Below are positions 14,904 to 43,638 of a stretch of 64,000 nucleotides of DNA, piece by piece. Numbering within the stretch: position 1 is the stretch's first letter; each line of letters opens with the position of its first letter. The position numbers were made by a program, and so were the translations under genes. The notes below the pieces were generated by a model. It was given only the letters and a program-made list of their open reading frames with translations, was not told where the DNA came from and did not search any database. The stretch is from Trichococcus palustris (GTDB lineage Bacteria; Bacillota; Bacilli; Lactobacillales; Aerococcaceae), in assembly GCF_900114465.1 (NCBI RefSeq), contig NZ_FOTD01000014.1, positions 1-64,000 of the forward strand, written 5' to 3'.

Positions 14904-15884
14904 TTATTCAATTGTTTCTGAAATTTTTTCGGTTGCTTGTGCTATTTCTTGCCTATCTTTCAACTCTTCGATATACGCGAAAGCTCGGTTGCCGGCTTCT
15001 CCACCGTCGCCGACTGCTGTAATGATTTGACGAAGCGCCTTCTTGCGCACATCCCCGATGGCATATATACCTGGTACGCTTGTTTCCATATGTTCGTTCG
15101 TAATGATCCAACCCTCTTCATCAGTAATGCCGAGGTCCAAGAACGCTTCCGATTGGGGAAGGATACCCACATAGATGAAGACGCCATCGATCGGTTTTTC
15201 CGTCAACTCATTCGTCTTCACGTTTTTGATGACGACCTTGTTTACCCTTTCCCCGTCGCCCTTGATTTCTTCCACGACGGAATCCCAGGTGATGTCTATT
15301 TTTTCATTCTTGAAAGCACGCTCCTGGATGATTTTTTGAGCGCGCAGCTTATCGCGGCGGTGCACGATGTTCACGTCGGCAAATTGGGTCAAGAAGATGC
15401 CTTCTTCAACCCCCGAGTCCCCTCCGCCTACAACGACCAGCTTCTTTTCCTTGAAGAACGCGCCGTCGCAGACTGCGCAATAAGAAACGCCGCGGCCATT
15501 GTATTCCGCTTCCCCGGGAACATCCAATTTGCGGTGCTTCGAACCAGTCGCAATGATGACGGTGCGCGTTTTGTATGATTTTTTGCCCGCCTCAACGATG
15601 CGGTAATCCCCATCAATGACGATCCGTTTTACACTGCCATACTTGTGCTCGGCACCGAATTGCATCGCACTTTCATACATCCTTTCGGAAAGTTCCGGGC
15701 CAAGAATCGATTTGAAGCCGGGATAATTTTCTACCTCAGCGGTGTTGTTCATTTCTCCCCCGGGTATGCCGTGTTCCAGCAATAATGTCGCTAAGTTCGA
15801 ACGGGATGCATACAACGCGGCGGTCATGCCGCCGGGGCCAGCTCCGATAATGATGACGTCATATATTTTTTCTTGTTGTTCCAT
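14904..15884 (-). CDS. trxB: Thioredoxin reductase
   Basis: NADPH-dependent flavoprotein that reduces thioredoxin; 326 residues from the chosen start. FAD site IIIGAGPGGMTAALYASRS is at about 11-29, redox pair C136-A-V-C139 in YCAVCDGAFF, NADPH site VVGGGDSGVEEG, and C-terminal FAD motif GIYAIGDVR. ATG 15884 after AAGGGAG matches the family N-terminus (MEQQEKIYDVIIIG). A nine-codon longer form from ATG 15911 has its own GGAGGG, which lies inside a small hairpin. A structured RNA and its terminator lie upstream. Confidence 0.94.
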   Translation of the reverse strand: MEQQEKIYDVIIIGAGPGGMTAALYASRSNLATLLLEHGIPGGEMNNTAEVENYPGFKSILGPELSERMYESAMQFGAEHKYGSVKRIVIDGDYRIVEAGKKSYKTRTVIIATGSKHRKLDVPGEAEYNGRGVSYCAVCDGAFFKEKKLVVVGGGDSGVEEGIFLTQFADVNIVHRRDKLRAQKIIQERAFKNEKIDITWDSVVEEIKGDGERVNKVVIKNVKTNELTEKPIDGVFIYVGILPQSEAFLDLGITDEEGWIITNEHMETSVPGIYAIGDVRKKALRQIITAVGDGGEAGNRAFAYIEELKDRQEIAQATEKISETIE

Positions 15885-15917
15885 ATTTTTTACTCCCTTT
15901 GTCTTTTTCATATTCCC

Positions 15918-15934: not shown

Positions 15935-15998
15935 AATGATTTCTTCCTTAGTTTACATTCGAAAGGCCCCTAGGTCCACCTTTCTGCTCAACAAAGGA

Positions 15999-16045
15999 AA
16001 GGAGGGGGATGTAAATCATGCAGTATGATTTACATCTCCCCCCTT
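15999..16045 (-). terminator. Long stem-loop at the end of the galU-trxB intergenic RNA
   Basis: GGGGGAGATGTAAATCAT pairs with ATGATTTACATCCCCC around a 5-nt loop, one of the strongest stems in the window. On the minus strand TCCTTTCCTTTG follows, a broken U tract, so it may terminate or attenuate transcription before trxB. On the plus strand TTTATT follows. Confidence 0.65.
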
Positions 16046-16394
16046 TATTAAACATCTAGCAAAGTATAAATTGTATTGATATAAGAAACGCATCATGGCA
16101 GGTGTTTCACAGAATCCGAATCTGTTTGACGCCATCACATAATGTCTAGCGGTCCAAGCCTGCCTCTCGGAATAAAGATGAAGGGTCCTCTTGGCTCTGC
16201 GAGCCAAGACATACTGTTCGACTAACCTACTGACGCGGGAAGTCTCACAGCAATTGCGCTCTACGATGCTCATTTGCATGGGACTTTTAGGGATTCATCC
16301 CTTAGAGCCCCAGTATAAGGTGACCGGAGGGAAAGTTGCAGGGCCAGATTTCCTAAATTTCTGTCGATGCAGGGCGGGCTTGTCCCGCTTTTCT
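16046..16394 (-). ncRNA. Unidentified structured RNA between galU and trxB
   Basis: A 350-bp stretch with no credible protein but dense, mutually consistent pairing. (a) A 3-way junction at 16258-16308: GCUCUA/UAGAGC encloses hairpins 16289-16302 (AGGGA-UGAA-UCCCU) and 16266-16279. (b) A helix at 16212-16252: UGCUGU-GA-GACU with AGUC-GA-ACAGUA, containing a tandem G.A mismatch and a G.U. (c) CCGGU/ACUGG at 16310-16327 with a G.U. (d) CUUGGCUC-GCA-GAGCCAAG at 16190-16208. (e) GGCAGG/CCUGCC joining 16159-16164 to 16097-16102, enclosing ACAGA/UCUGU. (f) GCGGG/CCCGC at 16374-16388. The two G.U pairs become A.C mismatches on the plus strand, favouring the minus strand. It does not match tmRNA, RNase P, SRP or 6S RNA or common riboswitches as I remember them. 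Confidence 0.6.
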
Positions 16395-17288
16395 TTATTT
16401 TGCTGCGTCTTCTGCTGAAAGTTTCTCTGATAATTCAATCAGATAAGCCTTCAGTTTGTCTTTGATTTCAGGATGTTCCAATCCGTAGGCGATGCTTGTC
16501 GTCAAGAACCCGAATTTATCCCCTACATCATAGCGTTTGCCTTCGAAGCGTTTAGCGAATACGCGTTGCGTATGGTTCAATGTATCAATGGCATCCGTCA
16601 ATTGGATTTCGCCGCCGGCACCAGGATTTTGCTTTTCCAAAATGTCAAAAATTTCCGGTGTCAGCAGGTAGCGGCCAATGATCGCCAAATTGCTCGGAGC
16701 ATCTTCCGGTTTTGGTTTTTCGACAAATTTGCGCACGTTGAACAAGCCAGGCTCCAGTTCCTGATCGGGATCGATGATGCCGTATTTTGAGGTTTCTTCG
16801 TGAGGGACTTCCATCACGGCGATGTTGGAAGCATGGGTTCTCTCATAGGCATCCATCAATTGTTTTGTTAGAGGCACTTTATCCACCATCAAATCGTCTC
16901 CAAGCATGACCACAAAAGGTTCATCCCCAACAAAAGCTTTCGCTTGCAATACAGCATGACCTAAGCCCAACGGATAGGATTGGCGGACAAAATGGATACG
17001 CAGGCCGGTCGTTTCTTGAACCAGTTCAAGCAATTCCGTTTTCCCTTTTTCACGCAAGTTTGCTTCCAATTCAATATTCGAGTCAAAATGATCTTCGATG
17101 GGACGCTTGCTTTTCCCTGTTACGATCAATATATCTTCAATACCGGATGCGATCGCTTCCTCGACGATGAATTGGATGGTCGGTTTATCGACGATCGGCA
17201 ACATCTCTTTCGCCATCGCTTTCGTAGCCGGTAAAAAACGTGTCCCAAAACCGGCAGCTGGAATAACTGCTTTTCTTACTTTTTTCAT
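16395..17288 (-). CDS. galU: UTP-glucose-1-phosphate uridylyltransferase
   Basis: Makes UDP-glucose from UTP and glucose 1-phosphate; 297 residues, cytoplasmic. The nucleotide loop is at the N-terminus ([33 protein letters not shown]); further family blocks are [22 protein letters not shown] and [15 protein letters not shown]-glucose supplies glycolipid anchors of lipoteichoic acid and wall polysaccharides. Its ATG overlaps the gpsA stop by 4 nt (ATGA), closing the hprK-lgt-ppaX-gpsA-galU string. The stop codon lies right at the start of the structured RNA region, so transcription may run on into it. Confidence 0.95.
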
Positions 17289-43554: not shown

Positions 43555-43638
43555 TGGCCACGAAGGGACTTGAACCCTCACATCGAAACCGATACCAGAT
43601 TCTGAGTCTGGCGCGTCTGCCTATTCCGCCACATGGCC
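43555..43638 (-). tRNA. tRNA-Leu, anticodon CAG
   Basis: 84 nt with acceptor GGCCATG/CGTGGCC (one T-G pair), anticodon stem CCAGA/TCTGG with anticodon CAG, a long class-II variable arm (ATCGGTTTCGAT) and a T arm GAGGG-TTCAAGT-CCCTT. The discriminator is A. CCA is not encoded. It is a single-gene unit with its own promoter and terminator. Confidence 0.96.

Follow-up and report, generated by a model that had tools for sequence, protein, structure and literature searches.

Between galU and trxB of Trichococcus palustris, a region without an evident gene shows such pronounced pairing potential that a preliminary description, made from the DNA letters of a 64,000-nucleotide stretch (the window), took it for an RNA gene specific to this locus. 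The question raised by this spacer is whether its fold belongs to the two neighbouring genes or to something that resides between them. We find that it is very probably one copy of a mobile element that is dispersed, modular, non-autonomous and similar in kind to EFAR and BOX, and that would insert beside terminators with its 3′ end towards the hairpin. This reading follows from the many copies per genome, the empty sites in congeners, the covarying shared ends, the module differences found at the same site and the position of the copies at the side of terminators. The copy and its surroundings, read along the minus strand and numbered as in the window, are the following.

16395..17288, minus strand: galU, upstream of the element; an ORF, named from the preliminary description and from our reading of the sequence.
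16053..16394, minus strand: whole element copy, its ends of type 1, with modules C and D and a 3′ tail, both borders being uncertain by some bases; the block common to about 39 loci and absent in 11 congeners.
16366..16389, minus strand: 5′ strand of helix P1, with 13 pairs at 16377-16389, a 5-nt bulge and 6 pairs at 16366-16371; from covariation.
16366..16389, minus strand, the same bases as the 5′ strand of P1: local hairpin GCGGG-ACAAG-CCCGC.
16341..16362, minus strand: 5′ strand of helix P2 with the AAUUUAGGAAAUC motif; from the alignment of cores and from same-site variants.
16273..16340, limits approximate, minus strand: module C, a long hairpin GGGGCUCUAAGGGAUGAAUCCCUAAAAGUCCC with its flanks; present or absent among copies.
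16183..16253, limits approximate, minus strand: module D, the tandem G.A helix and a hairpin CUUGGCUCGCAGAGCCAAG; related modules occur in Pisciglobus (L151) and in genome G023.
16148..16166, minus strand: 3′ strand of P1 (GAGGCAG GCUUGGACCGCU); from covariation.
16080..16145, minus strand: optional 3′ tail hairpin (GACAUUAUG...CAUGAUGCGUUUCUUAUAUC); copies without this tail include L014, L018, L026, L042 and L043.
15998..16046, no strand assigned: hairpin resembling a terminator, in the galU-trxB spacer but not part of the element; plus-strand score at 16004-16040.
14904..15911 (ORF limits; the true start may be near 15884), minus strand: trxB, downstream of the element; an ORF, named as for galU.

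The element has the galU stop codon at one side and a separate terminator-like hairpin at the other. The edge previously placed at 16394 is the base after that stop codon and falls within a few bases of the 5′ border common to the copies (approximately 16393-16405). The very long stem-loop with which the RNA was thought to end, at 15998-16046, is external to the element and was scored as terminator-like by the terminator scan on the plus strand only. Folding of the region on the minus strand was better than that of all 100 of 100 shuffles (z of -2.93), and the plus strand yielded a z of -2.86, so that the single sequence favours neither strand. The tandem G.A helix pairing UGCUGU-GA-GACU with AGUC-GA-ACAGUA was found in the region, as had been reported. 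A scan of the window, the region and seven further loci against 4227 Rfam models, which presumably include raiA, T-box, 6S, RNase P, tmRNA and introns, revealed no family at gathering score near any element, and at E up to 10 the region gave 13 weak rows, the best with an E of 0.03 and all far below gathering. The sole Rfam match above gathering in the window is a tRNA-Leu (CAG) on the minus strand at 43555-43638. The assignment to no known RNA family was therefore confirmed, and the notion of an evolutionarily constrained fold without an evident gene was borne out.

The attribution to a single locus was not sustained. A BLAST search against the genome of the same organism (2.93 Mb in 52 contigs), in which 40 of 49 candidates were scored, detected 65 matches, a lower bound, which fall at some 39 loci, that of the window and 38 others; the core model added one copy, at C6:68164, and two of the loci (L044 and L045), with identical flanks at contig ends, may be one copy. 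In one search of 41 genomes, all 13 of the genus were matched, compared with two of the 28 others, and a pattern derived from an element module matched 46 named stretches, 40 of which are titled Trichococcus.

Comparison of the copies revealed a shared core of about 120 nt, variable parts consisting of swappable modules and an optional tail, and 3′-adjacent sequences that differ from copy to copy; the minimal copies measure about 122 nt. The 5′ end and the 3′ block come as matched sets, of which there are at least three, AGCGGnnCAAGCC...CUGCCUC with GAGGCAGGCUUGGACCGCU, AGCUGAACGGGUU...AGCCCU with AGGGCUAACCCGUGAAGCU, and CAAGUC/GACUUG, all of which keep the same P1 register of 13 + 6 pairs around a 5-nt bulge. 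Enclosed by P1 are P2, whose internal loop is well conserved, a small P3 and the optional modules B, C and D, followed by the optional 3′ tail, which places the 3′ strand of P1 (P1′) in a subterminal position in tailed copies. In the galU-trxB copy, module D replaces the 3′ partner of P2 found in minimal copies, AGAUUUAUCUAAUUUC. Copies at the same site in related genomes (L146/L199 and L147/L122) differ in being minimal or module-bearing while their ends are unchanged, and the site of L146, with type 2 ends, carries in a relative a copy with type 1 ends (L191), which indicates replacement or a second insertion in addition to module exchange. Modules, and sometimes whole elements, are thus exchanged in place. 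Head-to-tail tandem arrays of cores, with few bases between units, were observed at L216, L257 and L277 and in genome G048. An element of about 400 nt in Pisciglobus halotolerans (L151), structured and intergenic, holds modules B and D in another setting.

A comparison of the galU-trxB spacer across relatives found no element in any of the 11 congeners whose locus is complete (the match in G008 extends to a contig end), although other hairpins stand in this spacer of congeners. In two pairs of empty and occupied sites (L168/L098 and L114/L030) the element immediately precedes a hairpin, on its A-rich side, and leaves it intact, and at L022 and L196 opposite sides of one intergenic terminator have been used, each 3′ end pointing towards the hairpin. 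Many of the copies read have an A-tract and a hairpin facing the 3′ end of the sense strand. Among the 31 of 40 copies that could be scored, 22 are followed within 200 nt by a hairpin of -15 kcal/mol or below, compared with 48 of 124 control stretches; as two of these hairpins lie in the element's own tail (L029 and L033) and two seemingly in the next gene (L026 and L036), 18 of 31 is the safer figure. With neighbouring ORFs called by a simple length rule, not curated, 29 of 38 copies of this genome are followed by an ORF on the opposite strand, while the upstream ORF lies on the same strand in 21 of 37, of which 18 end 1-13 nt before the element, and on the other strand in the remaining 16. 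An orientation of the sense strand against the replication fork was seen in 39 of 44 G277 copies and in 39 of 47 from G023 (a list that is partial, with the genome length rounded and neighbours in tandem taken separately), but in only 18 of 29 from G006; these counts take the origin from dnaA and assume the terminus to be opposite. In G277 and G023 this is not the exposed lagging-strand template expected from an IS200/IS605-like scheme, and it may merely follow the orientation of genes and terminators.

Whether the pairing is maintained was assessed across copies. Over 75 distinct pairs of ends, 1229 of 1425 P1 cells (86.2%) hold standard pairs, against a mean of 74.4% and a maximum of 78.3% with shuffled partners and 24.5-47.0% with partners slid by 1-3 positions; since rows were admitted at 11 or more of 19 pairs, which raises all of the P1 percentages, the contrast between matched and shuffled partners is the fairest. 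In 17 minimal cores, 17 of 42 pairs have changed on both sides, compared with 8.4 in shuffles (0 of 500 reach this number), and further pair types show no excess (25 versus 25.4); P2 contributes double changes in six of its 19 pairs. Across 102 distinct cores (138 matches in 86 chosen sources, minus 21 overlapping or antisense and 15 identical rows), 3457 of 3912 cells are Watson-Crick pairs, and the mismatches are asymmetric, with 109 G.U versus 30 A.C and 191 G.A versus 18 C.U, in an alignment fitted to the model and with a single pair supplying 32 of the G.U cells. The G.A helix of module D, in 27 distinct copies retrieved with a pattern that itself requires GAGACU and AGUCGA, has standard pairs at its six outer positions in 131 of 162 cells, with 29 G.U (24 of them at one position) versus one A.C and 17 cells changed on both sides. 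The asymmetry over the 102 cores points to the sense (minus) strand, either as RNA or as single-stranded DNA, as the likely folded one, and selection on this fold would belong to the best reading. The earlier preference for the minus strand is accordingly supported across copies and not by the individual sequence.

The same covariation would arise if the element were a MITE of the classical type, belonging to a DDE insertion sequence, with inverted repeats recognised in double-stranded DNA, an alternative that we hold to be unlikely. P1 taken alone is nearly symmetric, with 18 G.T and 12 A.C, as expected of a DNA inverted repeat, the element is dispersed, short and devoid of an ORF, and EFAR itself is listed as a MITE of Enterococci in the relevant passage of PMC3733652. 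A MITE is more difficult to reconcile with the subterminal position of P1′ in tailed copies, with the presence of double changes in P2 and in module D, with the predominance of G.U over A.C across all core helices (in the model-fitted alignment) and with the junctions of 32 copies, in which no target duplication was detected: the two junctions of the same copy share a mean of 5.59 nt, those of different copies 5.57 nt, and 971 of 2000 permutations are as high. L030 alone has 12 shared junction bases.

The 5′ end of the element has two possible partners: the 3′ strand of P1 or itself. A local 5′ stem of at least 5 bp can form in 73 of 102 cores, compared with 475 of 2040 shuffles, and in 70 of the 102 a stem of at least 4 bp follows an A-rich stretch, an arrangement that on the other strand corresponds to a terminator-like hairpin with a U tract; in the window, the terminator scan flags the plus strand at 16371-16391, at the 5′ end of the element. 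Since the local hairpin is made of bases that also form P1, the 5′ end could switch between the two pairings, and the hairpin is a predicted terminator of antisense transcripts. An alternative would be a domesticated 3′-UTR element, the copies of which would be retained for an RNA fold that stabilizes upstream mRNAs or adjusts termination and antisense read-through. The sense-strand bias of the tolerated mismatches, the short distance to most same-strand upstream ORFs (18 of 21) and the frequency of the alternative 5′ hairpin all agree with this role, which we nevertheless judge to be improbable, given that the upstream ORF is on the other strand in 16 of 37 copies and that relatives have no copy at galU.

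The distribution of the core extends well beyond Trichococcus. The R1 core model matched 118 of the 395 Lactobacillales genomes searched, spread over 20 of 80 genera and seven families, at E up to 0.01, the E-values being rough, the filters strict and at most nine matches scored per genome. One Streptococcus-like genus (f4 g16) accounts for 48 of the 118 with weak matches only (E of 3e-7 to 4e-3), frequently at a site that they have in common, and 70 genomes of 19 genera remain without it. The matches at a shared site of Streptococcus-like genomes (L253, L255, L319, L321, L323-L328, L330 and L331) are a related hairpin, AGATACTAAG...GACTGAAAATTAGGAA...TTATCTTTTTTCC, next to what appears to us to be the start of dnaJ. 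A close search of six genomes identified 57 (G048), 44 (G277), 25 (G088), six (G034), three and three copies, many of those in G048 forming tandem runs that repeat about every 121 nt. We presume G048 to be a congener of E. faecalis: 19 of 22 genomes of its genus encode a protein 68-74% identical to PDB entry 1sef, which we take to be an E. faecalis protein, and none is near 100%. In a class-wide sample, 21 of 398 genomes were matched at E up to 1e-4, three of them outside the order. Two stretches from outside the order (L318 and L329, the latter a tandem pair) contain hairpins ending GAAAGCTGAAGGC...GCTGGA or GAAAAGCGGAAGC...GCTGGAC with a similar pairing plan.

Plasmids and phages gave no match with a Trichococcus copy or with g37-type queries; a G277-type query matched 13 Enterococcus plasmids. 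In 11 plasmids of Enterococcus faecium, a 145-base stretch is 97.9% identical to the G277-type element (L304, 2501-2645), adjoining a LacI-type regulator in the region opened, and one plasmid each of E. faecalis and E. casseliflavus has a 60-base end of this element. Two apparent extensions of the family were discarded. The flank of L178 in 'Sedimentibacter sp. SX930' is nearly the same as that of L061 in G006, a Trichococcus genome, which argues against transfer to Sedimentibacter; the SX930 records (L164, L172, L178 and L185), which carry the element, are probably misnamed Trichococcus. SPRITE, considered as a member from Streptococcus, has an 18-bp duplex and a U-rich tract, as printed in the passage on it in PMC3049150, that are unlike the matches.

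Candidate mobilizing enzymes were sought by their co-occurrence with the element. Y1_Tnp matches, several of which are fragments, are found in 15 of 26 element-positive genomes, leaving 11 with none, and in six of 19 genomes without a BLAST match, while RVT_1 is present in eight of 14 element-rich genomes and absent from six, including the single-contig G153, G265 and G368. Neither is a strict partner; either might still act in the genomes that have it, or the copies found elsewhere could date from long ago. Within 2.5 kb of the element, two of the three plasmid regions opened contain an IS30 or IS6 gene, the third being without annotation; these regions provide no evidence for either as a partner. 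The missing RVT_1 also weighs against a SINE-like retroelement, in which a reverse transcriptase would copy the folded RNA with the T-tract of the terminator as primer, so that the antisense strand continues that tract. The A-tract and hairpin faced by the sense 3′ end in many copies are as such a mechanism would have them, but the copies vary at the 3′ tail and show no 5′ truncation, and we consider this origin very unlikely. A structured RNA specific to the locus, acting in trans from the galU transcript or in cis as a trxB leader, as was originally suggested, is hardly tenable: a sense orientation just after galU and a fold better than that of shuffles are outweighed by some 38 further loci in the genome, by the empty spacer in 11 of 11 congeners and by the separate terminator-like hairpin that stands between the element and trxB.

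For the mobile element favoured here, a mechanism can be envisaged in which a trans-acting enzyme would recognize the folded single sense strand, the candidate recognition signals being the AAAAGC...GCUAG ends, the tandem G.A pairs and the internal loop of P2 (UAGGAAAU/AUUUAUCUA), and would insert the element beside an intrinsic terminator with the 3′ end towards the hairpin. Such an insertion would be expected to cause little harm, since the sense side often falls between a stop codon and its terminator and the antisense side meets the possible terminator brought by the element itself: read from the other side, the 5′ end is a hairpin with a U-rich tract, which might serve as a second terminator for antisense read-through whenever it pairs locally instead of in P1. 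Consequences for galU or trxB, if any, would be incidental. Weighing against the mobile element are the search for its enzyme, in which neither candidate proved a strict partner, the undetected target duplication, the near-symmetry of P1 taken alone and the orientation to the fork in G277 and G023. The preliminary description had listed a match to a decayed mobile element among its refutations; a match to a mobile element is what was obtained, although the element appears to be maintained and not decayed. A broader proposal, that of an unrecognized order-wide superfamily of non-autonomous elements in which the fold of one strand, and not its sequence, is the recognition signal, copied to terminators by an activity other than Y1 transposases and reverse transcriptases and equipped with a switchable antisense terminator that would let it reside unnoticed between genes, is a doubtful one at present.

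If the region is viewed as a mobile element, a supposed single RNA gene becomes a member of a mobile repeat family, and such copies constitute a warning for RNA-discovery scans, in which they resemble new structured RNA genes. The module swaps at the same site and the occupied and empty terminators represent natural experiments for finding an enzyme that moves folded non-coding elements. A literature search, the scope of which left out most subscription papers, brought up nothing on repeats of this type in Trichococcus, nor on a family spanning the order.

Several known systems share one or more of these traits. The REP and REPIN sequences associated with RAYT, a Y1 transposase, are hairpin-based non-autonomous repeats near gene ends that are recognized as single-stranded DNA; the element differs from them in that Y1_Tnp is not a strict partner and in the orientation seen in G277 and G023, which is opposite to that expected for the lagging-strand template. 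Group IIC introns likewise insert beside intrinsic terminators, but the Rfam scan matched no intron in the stretches that it covered and RVT_1 is missing from six of 14 element-rich genomes. A leader or riboswitch of trxB should be conserved upstream of trxB in relatives, an expectation contradicted by the 11 empty spacers.

The nearest known kind would be EFAR of Enterococcus faecalis, to which the element is likened by description alone, membership in EFAR not being claimed. Venditti et al., in 2007, reportedly described EFAR as palindromic, 42-650 bp in length and composed of 16 interchangeable modules with a two-stem fold, and it is said to integrate at stem-loop targets, deleting most of the target stem. 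By this account EFAR shares with the Trichococcus element the variable assembly from interchangeable modules and the use of stem-loop targets, represented here by two empty/occupied pairs and by the hairpins beside many copies, and departs from it in the loss of the target stem, as the hairpin is kept in the pairs L168/L098 and L114/L030, which are two pairs only. Efa-1 of E. faecalis, presented in the corresponding passage of PMC2267715 as intergenic, with a 163-bp model, 65 copies and a pair of adjacent stem-loops, is probably the same thing as EFAR, and both resemble the Trichococcus element as palindromic intergenic elements with many dispersed copies. BOX of Streptococcus pneumoniae is, in the passage devoted to it in PMC3049150, modular, dispersed and folded with paired ends, judged to be parasitic and over-represented between convergent genes, and by this description it is similar in kind, whereas it is built of boxA-boxB-boxC modules. 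A single covarying core joins elements from many Lactobacillales genera, EFAR perhaps among them.
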